Source of the DNA: Synechococcus sp. HK01-R
Lineage (GTDB): Bacteria; Cyanobacteriota; Cyanobacteriia; PCC-6307; Cyanobiaceae
Assembly: GCF_014217855.1 (NCBI RefSeq)
Contig: NZ_CP059059.1
Span: 1,054,001-1,118,000, forward strand
Direction: 5' to 3'
Length of the DNA: 64,000 nucleotides
Positions 7,563 to 51,956 of the stretch are shown here, one piece after another. Position numbers and translations under genes: made by a program. Each line of letters begins with the position of its first letter. Position 1 is the stretch's first letter. Below the pieces are notes generated by a model. The model ran no database searches, was not told the origin of the DNA, and saw only the letters and a list, made by a program, of their open reading frames with translations.

Positions 7563-7636
7563 GCGCTTGTAGCTCAGCGGATTAGAGCATCTGACTACGG
7601 ATCAGAGGGTCGGGAGTTCGAATCTCTCCAGGCGCG
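7563..7636 (+). tRNA. tRNA-Arg (ACG)
   Basis: The cloverleaf is complete: acceptor GCGCTTG pairs with CAGGCGC, D-arm GCTC..GAGC, anticodon stem TCTGA/TCAGA with loop CTACGGA (anticodon ACG), and T-arm with GTTCGAATC. The discriminator base is G; CCA is not encoded. A terminator follows directly. Confidence 0.97.
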
Positions 7637-44786: not shown

Positions 44787-45269
44787 TTAGCCGAAGGCCA
44801 GCAAGGGTTTCAGTTTCAGCATCGCCACCGGGAATGCCATGAGCAGCACGGACATCGGCATCGCGAGCAACAGCGCCCTGTGGTGATGGCGAAATGCGGT
44901 GATCACACACCAGCCTCCGAGCGGTAGGAACAGGCCCAAGGCAGAGATCAGTCCGGGGGAATAGAGCCCGGTGCTGATGGTGGGAAGGATGTGGAAGCCC
45001 ACCATGTTCACCAGCATCACCCCGGGGAGTAACAGCGAGGCGGCAGGGACGCTCCAGCCCAGGCTTCCGGCCAGCAGTCCCAGGGGCACGACGCCGAATC
45101 CGTTGGTGATAAAGAAGTCGCCCCAGGTCACGGGCAGCCCCAGCACCTCCACGGCCCAGGGTTGCCAGCCGAGGTCGTATTCCTCAATCACATGCAATCC
45201 GTAGGCCAGCAGACACAGCCAGAACACCGAACGTCCCAAGGGGGAGCTGGTTGAGAAGCGTTCGTTCAT
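44787..45269 (-). CDS. HXXEE-domain membrane protein
   Basis: A 160-residue protein with about four or five helices. The HVIEEY motif near residue 26 (CLLAYGLHVIEEYDLGW) and the VNMVGFHILPTISTG block, where a second His sits in a helix, are the marks of the HXXEE family, function unknown, possibly metal-binding. The start at 45269 (MNERFSTSSP) is preferred to 45314. It is divergent from the broken mpg copy and marks the left edge of conserved chromosome before the accessory region. Confidence 0.75.
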   Translation of the reverse strand: MNERFSTSSPLGRSVFWLCLLAYGLHVIEEYDLGWQPWAVEVLGLPVTWGDFFITNGFGVVPLGLLAGSLGWSVPAASLLLPGVMLVNMVGFHILPTISTGLYSPGLISALGLFLPLGGWCVITAFRHHHRALLLAMPMSVLLMAFPVAMLKLKPLLAFG

Positions 45270-45349
45270 GGTTGAACTGAGACAGGAGGGCGGGCTGGAG
45301 AGCCTTGAAGGCATGATCGAGAGCCCTTGAGCATCTGTCCATCGCTTGC

Positions 45350-45600
45350 TCAGCCCTGCCCCACGCTTTCTTCTGCCGCCCTGCCGAGCTGGTTGCCCCC
45401 GAGCTCATCGGTTGCCTGCTGGTGAAACGCCAAATAGACGGCAGCTTGCTCTGGGGTGTGGTGGTGGAAACCGAGGCGTATTCCCAAGACGAGCCCGCCT
45501 GCCACGGCAACCGCCGCCGCTCCCCCAGCAACGAAACGCTCTTTGGCGAGCCAGGGCAGTTTTATGTCTAAGTGAGCTACGGCATTCACCACTGCGTGAA
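45350..45600 (+). pseudogene. mpg: Broken 5' copy of mpg (DNA-3-methyladenine glycosylase)
   Basis: 251 bases that align without gaps to 50293-50543, the 5' part of the mpg gene at the right edge of the island; my hand count is 21 differences. Translation gives [18 protein letters not shown] and [18 protein letters not shown], but TAT (Tyr) is changed to TAA at 45569-45571, and homology ends abruptly after HHCVK where unrelated sequence begins. No ATG, GTG or TTG is present in frame between the upstream stop at 45314 and the conserved part. It is a dead fragment, probably the original 5' end of the gene cut off by the insertion. Confidence 0.85.
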
Positions 45601-45721
45601 GCGAGCCCGTCACTCAACGACCCTTGGCTGGGCTTGAGATTGGATTGCTGCCAACGGGTCTCCCAGCCAATCGCCAAGCCACTCCCAGAAAAATCCCCCG
45701 ATTTGCACCATCCCTGGGCTG

Positions 45722-46396
45722 ATGACCCATTACCGCCAGTGCTCGGGGGGTAATCGCCACCTGTTTTCCCACAAGCTGAAGTGGCAGCGGCGGTCGGTGC
45801 AGAGTGATGTGCTGAGCGCGTGTGAAATCCAGGCGGTGCTTGCTGACCTGCAGAGCAATGAGAGCTGGTATTACCCGTTGTTTTTGCTGTGGCTCAGCAC
45901 GGGGATGCGGAATGGCGAAATCAGGGGTTTGACCTGGGATTGCATCCGCTGGGAAGAAGGTGAGCTGCTGGTCTGCAAGAGCTTGCGGCGTGATGGGTAT
46001 TGCTCAGGTCAACACAGCTGGGCAACGACGAAGACAGGCAAGGAGCGAGTAGTGCCGCTCACGCCCCTTGTGTTGGAGACCCTGAAGAAGCACCAGCAGA
46101 AGATGGGGCGACTGGGCGTGTATGAGCCCTATGGGCTTGTGTTTGTCGCTCACAGCAATCACAGCAATGTCTATGACCACCTGCTGGGTCGTGTTTGGAG
46201 GCGGTCATTGCAGCGCTGTGGCTTGAAGCCAAGGCGTCTGTATGCCCAACGCCATAGTTTTTTATCTCACGCTTTAGCGATGGCAAACTCCCCCGCTGAC
46301 TTGGCAGCTGCGGCAGGGCACTCCACCAAGATGCTGCTGGATACCTATGCCAAACCGACAGGCAGATTGAAGATGCCGAGTTGTCAGACAGCCTGA
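45722..46396 (+). pseudogene. Tyrosine recombinase catalytic domain, N-truncated and C-frameshifted
   Basis: 224 residues covering the catalytic domain only. Active-site residues: Arg in STGMRNGEIRGLTW, Lys in TTKTGKERVVPLTP, Arg in YAQRHSFLSH (Tyr takes the place of the first His of HxxR), His in AAAGHSTKMLLD and the nucleophile Tyr in LDTYAKP. The SAM-like core-binding domain expected before residue 25 is missing, and upstream sequence shows no remnant. After the Tyr the frame ends TGRLKMPSCQTA, while another frame continues with DRQIEDAELSDSLKLKMEKD to a stop at 46494; one lost base near 46356 explains this. It would be the element's integrase; activity is doubtful. Confidence 0.75.
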
Positions 46397-46494
46397 AGCT
46401 GAAAATGGAAAAAGATGTTATGAGCCAAGCTATAAGAGTGGGTGCGTCGCCAAGTGATGAAACAGAGAATGGCAATAAAAATAAGCCTGCGTGA

Positions 46495-46715
46495 TGGGCC
46501 CCTCTTGTTGGCCTTGCCTGCAGGTATTGGAGTGTCAGTAAATCCATATATTGATGCCCTGTAAAAACAACAACTTGAATAAATAATCATCGCCTGCAGT
46601 GCTCACTCGGTGGATTAAGGGGCGATCTCTGCAAGCCATAAAACAGAAGAGATGTGTTGGCTGCCAAGGGATTGGTGTCAGTGCTTCTGCGTGAGAAGAA
46701 ACAGGAGAAACTCAA
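46495..46715. other. AT-rich stretch without a gene
   Basis: Bases 46397-46494 contain the out-of-frame tail of the recombinase described above. From 46495 to 46715 I see no gene, tRNA or hairpin terminator; the stretch is visibly richer in A and T than the window. It precedes the Rep-like remnant and may hold its promoter or the element's replication origin, but no iterons or palindromes are evident. Confidence 0.5.
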
Positions 46716-47393
46716 ATGACTTCAATGAAAACTCAATATCAACAACAACAGAGACAGCAAGCCCAACGCCTCAAGCGGAATATCAAACGCCTCATCACAG
46801 GTGAGCTCCATAGCATCAATCCCTGGTGGCTCATCAGCTTCCACTACCGAGACCACCACGGCAAAGAAGATGAGTTGCTGAAGGATGTATCTGGCCTGAA
46901 GCGTAAGCTCCACCGCATCATTTGCAAGAGCCGTGATAAGAGCATCAAAGGTGCTGGTGAATACTCTTGTCCACGAATGCTGTTTTTCAACGAAACAAGC
47001 CACCAGGGCACAGGTCAGTTACATACGCACCTGATTGTGGAGAAGCTGCCAGAGAGCCTAAATAAGCAATAGGAGATGGAGCCCCTGTTTCACAAGTGAC
47101 TGCCCAGCAAGGTCAAAGCCTTGTCTAAGTGGAAATCAATAGATATTCAACGCATCAAACAAGCAGAAGATGACTACAGACGCATCAGCAGTTATTTGTG
47201 CAAGCAGACCAGCTTGGAGCTGATTTCCCTTGACCCATTCAATGGCGACCTATCACCCAGAAAAAATGAGACGAAACCAACTCACCATCACCTACCCAGA
47301 AGGAGATGCTCAGCAACTCCACCAAGCACTGCTCCTGCTGAAGATAAGTCGTTGCCTGAATATCTCAGCATTCTGCCGAAAGGCGAGTGCTGA
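46716..47393 (+). pseudogene. Rep-like (possible HUH endonuclease) gene with two in-frame stops
   Basis: One reading frame runs from 46716 (MTSMKTQYQQQQ) and is interrupted by TAG at 47070 and TGA at 47097, then continues in the same frame (LPSKVKALSKWKSIDIQRI, YRRISSYLCKQTS) to 47393. Residues on both sides of the stops read as one protein: a basic, Gln-rich start, NPWWLISFHYRDHH, CPRMLFFNETSHQGTGQLHTHLIVE (in two parts: PRMLFFNETSHQ and GQLHTHLIVEKLPE), then the Tyr-containing YRRISSYLCK. The HTH pair plus later Tyr resembles rolling-circle Rep or relaxase proteins, but this is a weak match. The last 40 codons overlap the next gene in another frame. Confidence 0.55.
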
Positions 47394-47433
47394 GAAGTTG
47401 GAGCGATTGGAGATGCAGGAGGCAGTCCAATGA
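47266..47433 (+). CDS. Tiny protein of the island, possible regulator
   Basis: A 55-residue protein from ATG 47266 (MRRNQLTITYPEGDAQQLHQ). A short N-terminal strand followed by two helices (ALLLLKISRCLNISAFCRKA; KLERLEMQE) resembles a ribbon-helix-helix protein, but the match is weak. It overlaps the end of the Rep-like frame and its stop overlaps the next start (ATGA, 47430-47433), so the two tiny genes are coupled. Earlier in-frame Met codons (47230, 47242) are possible starts. Confidence 0.5.
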   Translation: MRRNQLTITYPEGDAQQLHQALLLLKISRCLNISAFCRKASAEKLERLEMQEAVQ

Positions 47434-47588
47434 AGACCTTCACTATTCGTTTGCCTGATGTGGAGGCGGCGATGCTGGTGGAGGTGCACAAAAGGAATAA
47501 GGTATTCAAGGATCTGCAGCAGCTGTTGATCCAGCAAATCCATCAGGAATACGCCAAGACCCCAACAGGCAAAGCCTCCAAGCAATGA
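47430..47588 (+). CDS. Tiny ribbon-helix-helix-like protein of the island
   Basis: A 52-residue protein: MKTFTIRLPDVEAAMLVEVH is a typical beta strand plus first helix of Arc/CopG-type repressors, followed by NKVFKDLQQLLIQQIHQEY as a second helix and a short basic tail. Such proteins repress plasmid or element genes as dimers. It overlaps the preceding gene by 4 bp and its stop codon touches the convergent stop of the TPR gene (47588/47589). Confidence 0.6.
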   Translation: MKTFTIRLPDVEAAMLVEVHKRNKVFKDLQQLLIQQIHQEYAKTPTGKASKQ

Positions 47589-50234
47589 TCAGTAATCCTG
47601 GTATGCCTTCTCTTCCACTAGGGAAGATCCGTAGGTGGTGTTGATCTCTCTCTTGATGATTGAGCGACGATCGTTCTGTTGATAGACCGACCGAGCAAGG
47701 CGGATGAATGTTTCACCAAAGTTCTTCTGTCGCTCTTGATCCCGAATAGCATCTTCTATCAGCCAGAGGTCTTGATTGACTTCCTTGAGGCGTTGAATAA
47801 GTTTTGGATCTACCTGAAGATCCAGGGCATCCAGCGTCTGTTGAAGAGCTGATCGTTCTTTCTGGACATTCTCCAGAGCCTTTCCTTGGAGATGGTTGCT
47901 CTTGATTTGGAGAATGGTGATCTTGTCAATCAGTTCGCCAAGGGAGATGGGCGCTTGGATTTCGGTGAGTGGTTTTGGTGAGGTGGATGCCGCTTCTGCC
48001 TGCTTTGGTTGGGCGCTGCCGCTCTCTGCAGCAGAGAGCCCTGGAAACTGCTCCTGCAGTGCCTCTGCGACCCGCTCAAGCACCTCATCCCAGTTGCCTC
48101 TCTCTCTTTGGCGGAAGAGTCGCATCGAGGGATACCAGAAGGTGGTGTCGCCTTCTAAGCCCCAACGCCAATCAGGAACTTTGTGGAGGAGCAGCCAGGT
48201 GGTCTTCCCCATTCCCCCTGCCAAGTGTGCAACTGCGGTGTCGCTGGTAATGACCAGATCGCAGTTGTCAATGATGGCTGCTGTCTCTAGGAAATCCCAG
48301 GTCTCATCCACCTGTGGCTGGCAACTGACGAAACGATCCCTGAACGGACAAGTTTCTAGCTGCTCACTGCCAAAGCCCTTCTGCAGCGACAACAGGGATA
48401 TATGGCGATTCGTTGTGACAGGTGCGAAGGCTTCTAATGCCAACGAACGCCCACGCAGACCTGTTTTCTCTGTTTTTGGATTGCCTTGCCAGTTGATGCC
48501 GATGATGGGTCGCTGTTCGGTTGAAAAGATGCCCTTCCACTTGTCAATGAGTTCGTCAGTGGTTTTGATGTATGGCTCGGTGATGACGGGGTTGTCTGGG
48601 TTGACTTCTAAGTGGCGAGGAACAGATAGAAGAGGTATCCATTGCCCATCATTGATTTTGTTGGCTTGTTGTGGCGTGAGTGGTGATGGGTCAATGCCAG
48701 AGGTCTTGATGAGGCTGTGTAGCTTTGGCTGGGCACAAAATGAAACCGATGCTCCTTGTTCTCTTAGCGCAATTGCATAACGCATGAACTGAAGTGTGTC
48801 GCCAAGACCTTGCTCGCTGACAAGGAGAACTTGGCTGCTTGTATCTGGTTTCAATCCATCCCATAGGCTGCATTGGGGTTGGGCGTGTGGCTTTGATGGT
48901 GTTTTCTTTTTCTTGCTTCTCCATTCGTATTTCTCCCAGCCATTCTTGTAGTCGCCACCCAGAAGCATTGTTAGCGAAGAGTTCCAGTGAACATCTGTGT
49001 AGTTGGGCTTGAGTTGCAGGGCAGTGTTGTAGGAGGCAATGGCAGCGTCTAGGTCGCCATGGTCCTTGAGAGCATTGCCGAGGTTGTAGTGAACTTCTGG
49101 GTAGTTGGGCTTGAATTGAAGAGCAGTTTTGTAGGAGGCAATGGCAGCGTCTAGGTCGCCATGGTCCTTGAGAGCATTGCCGAGGTTGTTGTGAGCTTCT
49201 GGGTAGTTGGGCTTGAGTTGCAGGGCAGTGTTGTAGGAGGCAATGGCAGCGTCTAGGTCGCCTTGGTTCTTGAGAACATTGCCGAGGTTGTTGTGAGCTT
49301 CTGGGTAGTTGGGCTTGAGTTGCAGGGCAGTGTTGTAGGAGGCAATGGCAGCGTCTAGGTCGCCATGGTCCTTGAGAGCATTGCCGAGGTTGTAGTGAGC
49401 TTCTGGGTAGTTGGGCTTGTGTTGCAGGGCATTGTTGTAGGAGGCAATGGCAGCGTCTAGGTCGCCATGGTCCTTGAGAGCATTGCCGAGGTTGTTGTGA
49501 GCTTCTGGGTAGTTGGGCTTGAGTTGCAGGGCATTGTTGTAGGAGGCAATGGCAGCGTCTAGGTCGCCATGGTCCTTGAGAGCATTGCCGAGGTTGTTGT
49601 GAGCTTCTGGGAAGTTGGGCTTGAGTTGCAGGGCAGTGTTGTAGGAGGCAATGGCAGCGTCTAGGTCGCCATGGTCCTTGAGAGCATTGCCGAGGTTGTT
49701 GTGAGCGTCTGGGAAGTTGGGCTTGAGTTGCAGGGCAGTGTTGTAGGAGGCAATGGCAGCGTCTAGGTCGCCTTGGTCCTTGAGAGCATTGCCGAGGTTG
49801 TTGTGAGCGTCTGGGAAGTTGGGCTTGAGTTGCAGGGCAGTGTTGAAGGAGGCAATGGCAGCGTCTAGGTCGCCTTGGTCCTTGAGAGCATTGCCGAGGT
49901 TGTTGTGAGCGTCTGGGAAGTTGGGATTGAGTTGAAGAGCTTTCTTGAGAAGTTCTACGAGTTCGTCAAACCTCCCCTGCATCCCGCAGATTGCCGCCAG
50001 GTTTCCATAGACAATGTGATTGTTTGTGCCAGCGGAAATCAGGTCTTTGTAAATCGCTTCTGCTTCTTGCAGCTTGCCTTGATTGATCAGTGCAACAGCC
50101 TGCTGTTCCTTGGCAGCTTGATCAGCAGACCTCTTGGTGATTTGCTGTTTGGGGGCTGTTGCTGGCTTGGCAGCTGAGAACCCACCGCTATTCCGCTTGG
50201 GCTTGCCCACTCCAGACCACCTGCTTCCCCCCAA
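47589..50234 (-). CDS. TPR protein with glycosyltransferase-9-like and DUF6165-like parts
   Basis: An 881-residue protein in three parts. Residues about 45-430 are TPR repeats, nine of them nearly identical 34-residue units ([20 protein letters not shown], then [14 protein letters not shown]). Residues about 475-735 resemble TPR-associated GT-B (GT9-like) domains: [60 protein letters not shown] and [12 protein letters not shown]. Residues about 765-881 match the DUF6165-type tail ([20 protein letters not shown], then [20 protein letters not shown]). Proteins of this plan occur with protein- or surface-glycosylation loci in picocyanobacteria; the substrate is unknown. Composition is more AT-rich than the flanking core genes, suggesting transfer. 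Confidence 0.85.
49001..49918. repeat. Nine tandem 102-bp repeats coding TPR units
   Basis: Nine consecutive units of exactly 102 bp (918 bp in all) differ from each other at only a few positions, for example CATGGT versus TTGGTC and GAGCTTCTGGGTA versus GAGCGTCTGGGAA. Each encodes one 34-residue TPR. The nucleotide identity, including third codon positions, points to recent unequal crossing-over or slippage rather than old, selected divergence. Unit number probably varies between strains. Confidence 0.95.
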
Positions 50235-50901
50235 TCTAAGAAGCGAGAACTCTCAAGCCACTCCCATAGCCACCACCCCCACCCAAGACCCCCCAGCCCT
50301 CCCCCAGAGTTTCTTCGCCCGCCCTGCCGAGCAGGTCGCCCCAGAGCTCATCGGTTGCCTGCTGGTGAAACGCCAAACAGACGGCAGCTTGCTCTGGGGC
50401 GTGGTGGTGGAAACCGAGGCGTATTCGCAGGAGGAGCCTGCCTGCCACGGCTACCGCCGCCGCTCCCCCAGCAACGAAACGCTCTTTGGTGAGCCAGGGC
50501 GTTTTTATGTCTATGTGAGCTACGGCATCCACCACTGCGTGAATGTGGTGACCGATCGGGCGGACTGGGCCAATGGTGTGTTGCTTAGGGCCGTGGCACT
50601 GCCTGGTGAGCCTGAGCGCGTGGCAGCGGGACCTGGGCTCCTGGCCCGTCGCTTCGGGATCGACCGCCGCCATGACAGCAGCTCCGTCTGTGGGGAGAAT
50701 GACGTGTGGTTGGCGACCCGGCCTTCCGTTCTCGGTCATCCTGAGCTTGTGAGCACCACACGGATCGGCATTACCCAGGGGCAGGATCTGCTCTGGCGCT
50801 GGTACCTCAGGGGCAGCCGCAGCATCAGCCGTCGCGCCTCTGGTGATCGCATGCCTGGGAAGGCGCAGGCCTGGAGCCCGGACGGGCTGGAGTCTCCATG
50901 A
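50203..50901 (+). CDS. mpg: DNA-3-methyladenine glycosylase (Mpg/AAG family), rebuilt 5' end
   Basis: Base-excision repair glycosylase removing alkylated purines. From about 50305 the protein is a full family member: [20 protein letters not shown], the catalytic [59 protein letters not shown] and the C-terminal [12 protein letters not shown]. The start is uncertain: no ATG, GTG or TTG lies in frame between 50206 and the conserved part; the nearest is a TTG at 50203, inside the first codons of the divergent TPR gene. The first 251 conserved bases duplicate 45350-45600. Its stop overlaps pyrB by 4 bp, the ancestral arrangement. It may be poorly translated, or use a non-standard start. Confidence 0.8.
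50293..50543 (+). repeat. Right copy of the 251-bp mpg direct repeat
   Basis: Gapless match to 45350-45600 (21 differences by hand count). Left of 50293 the two copies have no similarity, and right of 50543 only this copy continues into the rest of mpg. The intact Tyr codon TAT stands here where the left copy has TAA. Confidence 0.9.
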
Positions 50902-51956
50902 GTCGCTGGACCCATCGCCACATCCTCGATCTTGCGGCCTTCTCACGGGAGGACTACGCCGCTGTCCTTGAGCTTGCCCATCGGTTCCGGTCCATGCCGG
51001 TCACCGGTGCCCGCAAGCTCCCTGCCCTGCAGGGACGCCTCGTGGCGACCCTGTTCTTTGAGCCCAGCACCCGCACGCGCAGCAGTTTCGAGCTGGCGGC
51101 TAGGCGTCTGTCTGCCGATGTGTCGAGTTTCTCGCCGGGCAGCAGTTCTCTGAGTAAGGGGGAATCGCTGCTCGACACGGCCCGCACCTACGTGGCCATG
51201 GGCGCGGATGTGCTCGTGGTGCGCCATCAGTGCACCAGTGTTCCTCAGCAGCTGGCGGAGGCGTTAGAGGCCTCTGGTGAGCGCACGGTGGTTCTCAATG
51301 GTGGTGATGGACTCCACAGCCACCCCAGCCAGGGACTGCTGGACCTTTACACCCTGGCCCATCATTTCGATCCTCTGCACCCACTGCCTGAGGCGTTGCG
51401 GGGTAAACGGATCTTGATCGTGGGCGACATCCTGCATTCGCGGGTGGCCCGCTCCAATCTCTGGGCCCTCACCGCCTGCGGTGCAGATGTGGTGCTCTGC
51501 GGCCCCCCCAGCCTTCTGCCGTCCGCTTTTGCCGGCTTCGTGGATGCGCCACCACCTGGACAGTCTGTGGACCCGGTGCGCGATCGCGGTTCCGTGACCG
51601 TGAGCCATCGGCTCGACGAGGCCTTGCCTGGTGCCGACGCCGTGATGACCCTGCGCCTGCAGAAAGAGCGCATGAGCCAGCACCTGCTCACCGATCTGGA
51701 TCGCTATCACCGCGACTATGGCCTGAGCCATGCCCGGCTCGAGCGGTGTGGCAAGCCAGTGCCGGTGCTCCACCCCGGTCCGGTGAACCGTGGGGTGGAG
51801 ATGACCGGGGCCCTGCTCGACGACACTGGCCGACACAGTGGCCGCTGTCTGGTGGAGGAGCAGGTGCGTCATGGCATCCCGATCCGGATGGCACTGCTCT
51901 ATTTGATGGCAGCTGCAGAGTCGTCCGCTGATTCGGCCCTGGCTTCGGTGGGTTGA
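50898..51956 (+). CDS. pyrB: Aspartate carbamoyltransferase catalytic subunit
   Basis: A 352-residue enzyme of pyrimidine synthesis that joins carbamoyl phosphate and aspartate. Carbamoyl phosphate motif [18 protein letters not shown], the [16 protein letters not shown] block, [13 protein letters not shown] and [13 protein letters not shown] are intact. No regulatory subunit gene (pyrI) is nearby, as in other cyanobacteria. The start overlaps the mpg stop (ATGA). The 3' end overlaps the convergent NDH-2 gene by 58 bp. Confidence 0.96.

Follow-up and report, generated by a model that had tools for sequence, protein, structure and literature searches.

A small integrative element that very probably replaced the 5' end of mpg in Synechococcus sp. 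HK01-R, with related elements in other picocyanobacteria

Mobile elements that enter the 5' end of a gene and provide it with a replacement start are known from SXT/R391 in prfC, which are large conjugative elements. In Prochlorococcus, the Tycheposons are tyrosine-recombinase elements that carry cargo and use tRNA genes. Here we analysed 64,000 nucleotides of Synechococcus sp. HK01-R (NZ_CP059059.1, 1,054,001 to 1,118,000; the window, in which all positions are counted unless stated otherwise), where a small element with a tyrosine recombinase lies in the repair gene mpg, between two copies of the 5' end of that gene. The mpg element resembles SXT/R391 in its integration in a gene 5' end and in the replacement start, but the proteins searched at this locus matched no conjugation family. 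By Pfam none of them was a phage structural or packaging protein either, though not all of the very small open reading frames (ORFs) were searched. With the Tycheposons it shares picocyanobacterial hosts, a tyrosine recombinase and cargo, whereas its family uses protein-coding genes; the target is mpg, and the tRNA genes of the window are at 7563, 41534 and 54647. The closest described system is that of the dusA islands. There, an island with an integrase lies within the 5' end of a conserved gene and supplies the replacement, excision rejoins the original 5' end, a short conserved att repeat is present, and the integrases are placed in Proteobacteria (PMC4482086). The mpg element is alike in having a tyrosine recombinase by one junction, an island-supplied 5' end with the original one stranded, the core at both ends and empty sites with one copy; it differs in its target, in its picocyanobacterial hosts, in its size (about 3-7 kb in the elements measured) and in having related integrases that replace the 3' ends of other genes. 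The sequence-only reading of this DNA had called a 5'-end replacement unusual. The mechanism had already been published for dusA, though mpg is still an unusual place for it, and no paper naming mpg as an integration site was among the open-access literature matches listed. Our verdict is thus a known mechanism in an unusual place, within a family that we did not find described in the searched literature. The results outline very small picocyanobacterial integrative elements bearing a spare end of the gene they break; the three targets include two DNA-repair genes, mpg and uvrA.

The insert in the window is bounded by an ungapped direct repeat of 250 nt with 92% identity (45351-45600 and 50294-50543), both copies corresponding to the mpg 5' end. 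The repeat had previously been given as 251 bases with 21 differences; the absence of gaps was confirmed, but the count was not, there being 21 differences in 250 nt from 45351 and 22 over 251 bases from 45350. The left copy is dead, as proposed from the letters, with an in-frame stop and a sharp breakpoint where the match to mpg ceases after 45600, and the right copy runs on into the full gene with a complete MPG domain (Table 1). The G+C content of the insert was 52.3% versus 63.4% and 63.9% in its flanks. The left copy together with its upstream flank could be aligned with the empty site of the relative G028 as a single alignment (87.6% over 403 columns), whereas the similarity of the right copy to G028 begins only inside mpg. 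The original 5' end is therefore the left copy, and the element brought the right one, in agreement with the earlier suggestion that an element-borne version had replaced the 5' end of the gene. The duplication is more than chance, because other genera show this arrangement too, with the break at the identical base.

We have little doubt that an integrative element entered mpg by site-specific recombination and replaced the 5' end of the gene. In the proposed course of events, a 4.94-kb element would enter as a circle, an intermediate that we infer for the mpg branch, and bring its own copy (about 290 bp) of the mpg 5' end. A tyrosine recombinase, presumably the one encoded by the element, would then cross over within CACCACTGCGTGAA, a stretch that codes for part of the conserved IHHCVN motif. 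Integration would strand the original 5' end on the left (attL) and splice the 5' end of the element to the native 3' part on the right (attR), and a full-length gene would be kept. In the window genome (G000) the left copy has a T just before the core, as do the empty relatives G018 and G028, and the right copy has a C there; the exact crossover base should therefore lie within CACCACTGCGTGAA or at its end. An inverted repeat (CATTCAC-CACTGC-GTGAATG) is present at the core; since 0.8% of positions in three control loci have arms of at least 7 bp, it is only suggestive as a site feature.

Empty sites were frequent in the relatives. The mpg locus was inspected in 26 of the 31 same-genus genomes (G005, G015, G016, G027 and G029 were left out), and 14 loci were empty, with mpg close behind vuf and one copy at the locus (G028, G018, G011, G023, G020, G002, G003, G009, G014, G021, G001, G006, G024 and G007). 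This single mpg is joined to the vuf/HXXEE side and to pyrB, which is what the sequence-only reading had expected of a site without the element. G028 has a single mpg at the locus, yet further mpg fragments elsewhere in its genome. The gap between vuf and mpg was wider in G010, G013 and G022, and nine loci were occupied or scarred (G000, G019, G004, G030, G026, G017, G008, G012 and G025), the vuf of G030 lying outside the stretch examined. The locus of G012 has genes for a RAYT-like transposase and a Nif11-type precursor without a second mpg piece. A left fragment without a recombinase at mpg, which had been named beforehand as a sign of older duplication, does occur in G026, G017, G008 and G025. 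We read these fragments as element remains because RAYT and/or Nif11 genes adjoin all four and, in G025, because the fragment stops at the breakpoint of the window's left copy and is followed by an element end that is partly similar.

The break falls on one and the same base in ten left junctions (nine genomes, at least four genera), namely those of G000, G019, G175, G217, a metagenome-assembled genome from Lac Pavin (L095), G183 (two junctions), G030, G025 and G287, with small core variants in G175, L095, G025 and G287. The sequence that follows is of the GCGAGCC type in six (G000, G019, G030, G175, the first junction of G183 and the Lac Pavin genome), close to it in G287 and partly similar in G025. 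A GGCGGCC left end is common to G217 and the second junction of G183, and the integrases of these two are also sisters in the tree. In fact, G183 holds a tandem array (G183:C1:1858000-1884000; L081, L109) in the order left fragment, integrase, second fragment, integrase, intact mpg and pyrB; the first integrase of this array is split by about 1.7 kb of extra sequence.

The integrases belong to a wider family. At E 1e-30 or better they were found in 21 of 300 sampled genomes of the taxonomic family and in 7 of its 59 genera, and at E 0.001 in 10 of the 31 same-genus genomes, one of them only 27% identical. Searches of phage and plasmid collections gave 148 and 32 records, respectively, all below 60% identity. 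Three targets were found: mpg, whose 5' end is replaced, and uvrA and a PLD-like gene, whose 3' ends are replaced. The uvrA target was named by NCBIfam (UvrA, 1.8e-156, positions 671-942, below the whole-protein cut-off as only the C-terminal part is on the stretch), the Pfam result for this piece being a weak ABC match only, and the PLD-like target matched PF13091 in two loci (2.2e-47 and 1.6e-46). In the integrase tree, from which the broken G022 row was left out, the clades correspond to the targets. All five uvrA rows form one clade (support 96/92), all ten PLD rows another (64/84, or 100/96 with one row of unknown target added), and all eight mpg rows a third (87/83), which also holds two rows of unknown target. 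Nine of the ten PLD rows have a PLD fragment motif upstream, and the remaining one, G078a, was labelled by a 104-column match only. When upstream and downstream sequences of 32 integrase copies were compared, a duplication of 220-292 bp was present in 12. One further locus (G165, L089) is a composite of two branches: two PLD-branch integrases enclose an mpg 5' fragment that stops at the core and is accompanied by RAYT and orf67. In G132 (L079) an mpg-branch integrase has no mpg fragment upstream, and the stretch contains four copies of a sequence of about 800 bp, with 89-94% identity.

In some relatives the same type of element also carries an intact Rep gene, a RAYT-like transposase gene and Nif11 precursor genes. 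For example, the order in G019 is left mpg fragment, int, rep, orf67, RAYT, Nif11-type gene (reverse) and intact mpg, and G030 is consistent with it over two contigs (a 3.9-kb contig of G030, L029, was considered as a circle and has one end inside the mpg fragment and the other inside a Nif11 gene). G175 has RAYT and no Nif11 match at the element, neither gene was found in G217, G183 and G287 within the stretches examined, and the window element carries a TPR (tetratricopeptide repeat) gene as cargo instead. The transposase of the relatives matched Y1_Tnp (PF01797, 1.1e-13) and, below its cut-off, the RAYT-like NF047646. A divergent Nif11-type (prochlorosin-type precursor) gene starts 67-116 bp upstream in 22 of 49 mpg copies or fragments, the middle fragment of G183 being counted twice, and a G028 precursor scored above the NCBIfam cut-off (TIGR03798). 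The domain PF13575 (DUF4135), which we take to be the LanM dehydratase domain, was found in 8 of 16 genomes searched and was absent from G000. In G026 a gene of this LanM type is part of the mpg island, at 410.4-411.6 kb, with vuf at 406.7 kb and pyrB at 424.6 kb on either side; in G030 the domain is 10 kb from mpg, in G028 it is among the dispersed fragments, and in G019, G004, G012, G017 and G025 it is elsewhere. Nif11 matches numbered at least 150 in G017 and at least 116 in G025, far above the relatives. According to PMC10783134, recombinases, integrases and transposases occur in prochlorosin clusters; its references include a TnpAREP preprint (Laurenceau et al.), the title of which points to the same association of RAYT with prochlorosin-type genes.

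A tentative reading of these data, which we put at somewhat below even, is that mpg-integrating elements are or were a main vehicle moving prochlorosin-type precursors, and at times LanM, into and among picocyanobacteria, mpg 5' stubs beside precursors elsewhere being their footprints. Such a link would offer a specific and testable path by which a very diverse peptide family could have spread and, if true, a testable mechanism for how one promiscuous synthetase gained many scattered substrates. Ten mpg fragments outside the mpg locus bear on it (six in G028 and one each in G026, G017, G012 and G008). It is an even question whether these dispersed fragments, as opposed to those of the window, were passengers of Nif11 duplication, perhaps kept since the precursor promoter overlaps the mpg start, rather than element remains. 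For nine of the ten, the start of a Nif11-type gene lies 78-87 bp away, and no integrase of the mpg-element family was near them in the stretches examined, as passengers would have it; however, the G028 fragment at 1,669,379 stops precisely at the att core, and RAYT remains lie behind four by tblastn and behind a fifth by eye.

For the branch that targets uvrA, an excised form may have been caught. The IMG/VR metagenome contig L108 has an exact terminal repeat of 127 bp, giving 3,379 bp if circular, and encodes a uvrA-branch integrase, a Rep and an FkbM methyltransferase (TIGR01444), with a spare uvrA 3' end including the stop codon adjoining the integrase. This circular-looking arrangement is as expected of an excised element, and a Rep query in viral contigs gave only L108 again.

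Several observations weigh against site-specific entry into mpg as proposed here. The terminal repeat of L108 could come from a tandem array instead, the attP pattern of an mpg-type circle gave 0 matches in viral contigs, and the G019 integrase as query gave 0 relatives there. The G004 integrase (72%) has its junction 15-16 bp further 3' and an 867-column duplication, so that the branch as a whole does not have one fixed breakpoint. No integrase lies at mpg in G026, whose two longer fragments end elsewhere (query 466 and 349). Among the 32 integrase copies, those outside the 12 show shorter, longer, repeated or no matches, often because one end is missing: six or so have shorter or longer duplications, several lie in tandem arrays or repeats, and some have no duplication beside the integrase, among them L029, L070, L080, L083, L086 and L088. 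The mosaic signal of the 5' part of mpg was equal in pairs of empty-site genomes, so it gives no support for replacement. Four-fold sites were more alike 5' of the core, with a step at the core, in 57 of 66 within-genus and 36 of 38 cross-genus pairs, but empty-site pairs gave the same signal (75/84) and this test was dropped as evidence; sister pairs were kept in the first two counts and dropped in later runs including the empty-site control, and the pyrB control ranged from 30 to 58%. Even among empty-site genomes, identity at four-fold sites falls at the core, from about 0.7 to 0.4.

An old tandem duplication of mpg, with one copy later truncated and separated by unrelated insertions, seems improbable to us. 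Many relatives do have several partial mpg copies (at least two matches to the mpg 5' end in 10 of the 31 genomes), some ending at other places. However, a single copy stands at the locus in more than half of the genomes inspected, genomes of different genera share their breakpoint to the exact base, in most cases with a recognisable element end and an integrase following, and the sequence upstream of the right copy differs from that of the native gene. Still less credible is homologous import of a foreign mpg 5' end with its neighbours, the integrase being a mere passenger, which would likewise yield a hybrid gene but leaves unexplained the stranded left copy ending at the core, the G183 array, and the same logic at uvrA and the PLD-like gene with the same integrase family.

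Between the two mpg copies are a tyrosine recombinase remnant, a Rep pseudogene, two small ORFs and a TPR gene (Table 1). The tyrosine recombinase had been noticed close to the left junction, and its domain begins 122 bp away with the N-terminal part missing. About 130 N-terminal residues are deleted compared with the 357-aa integrase of G030 and the catalytic region is kept, the roles of the catalytic residues being those known for integrases; the intact relatives have integrase frames of 354-392 codons. The Rep-like remnant is a Rep pseudogene with two stops, of HUH type by motif; H99 and H101 (HxH), Y156 and K159 (YLxKQ) are invariant in an alignment of eight Rep relatives. PHROG 3584 ('replication initiation protein') was matched by six of these eight (best 6e-6). 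The AlphaFold2 (AF2) model of Rep had a pLDDT of 78.5, and Foldseek gave nothing significant (best E 0.057). In structural alignment (VIA) its best match was 2x3g, which we take to be SIRV1 ORF119, an HUH Rep (Z 8.7, root-mean-square deviation 3.4, 113 aligned); adeno-associated virus (AAV) Rep scored Z 7.7 and CCA-adding enzymes up to 7.3, and according to the tool Z near 8 can be chance. A search of Protein Data Bank (PDB) sequences with Rep gave two unrelated matches only (E 0.25 and 1.4). The cargo, a TPR gene on the opposite strand, contains about ten 102-bp units at 48885-50102 (-) that encode 34-aa TPRs, the central units being 94-95% alike. A relative of this cargo adjoins an older mpg fragment in G019 (L020 6706-7905). 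Judged from its sequence, the element of the window is a dead copy, or fossil, because its integrase is missing about 130 residues at the N-terminus and two stops interrupt its Rep, and this copy can probably no longer move by itself.

Table 1. Positions of the mpg element, its junctions and its neighbours in the window
Feature	Position	Strand	Basis or remark
HXXEE-family gene, native left flank	44787..45314	-	PF13787 1.2e-7
Severed original mpg 5' end (left copy), TAA 45569-45571	45351..45600	+	continuous with G028 empty-site flank
attL core CACCACTGCGTGAA	45587..45600	+	breakpoint common to ten left junctions, nine genomes
Element left end GCGAGCC...GCTGGGCTTGA...CCAAGCCACT	45601..45710	+	left-end type seen in relatives
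Tyrosine recombinase, catalytic domain only	45722..46396	+	PF00589 6e-16, alignment
Rep pseudogene	46716..47393	+	stops TAG 47070-47072, TGA 47097-47099; HUH type by motif
orf67, small conserved element ORF	47230..47433	+	alongside int and rep in G019, G030, G175, G132, G155
Small ORF with homologue in G030's element	47434..47589	+	by eye; homologue without family above cut-off
Cargo: 881-aa TPR protein, C-terminal DUF6165	47589..50234	-	repeat and domain searches
Element-borne mpg 5' end (right copy)	50254..50543	+	repeat and flank comparison
attR core CACCACTGCGTGAA	50530..50543	+	junction comparison
Intact hybrid mpg (element 5' end and native 3' end), start codon uncertain	50254..50901	+	PF02245 8.4e-50; TIGR00567 3.1e-37
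pyrB, native right flank	50898..51956	+	PF02729 1.2e-38, PF00185 2e-17

Three minor features of the element ends and of the mpg start were also noted. The leader CAAGCCACTCCCATAGCC was rejected as element-specific, since matches to the mpg 5' end start there also in the island-free loci of G002, G003, G011 and G023; in the island-free G020 the match begins a few bases later. Similar copies of CAAGCCACT near both element ends, judged by eye, are candidate arm sites. In 6 of 16 mpg genes (G028, G010, G017, G012, G030 and the Lac Pavin genome) there was no in-frame ATG, GTG or TTG between the upstream stop and the conserved FFxRPA motif, a region that corresponds to 50134-50300 in the window, and from their sequence these six genes may start at ATA, ATC or CTG.

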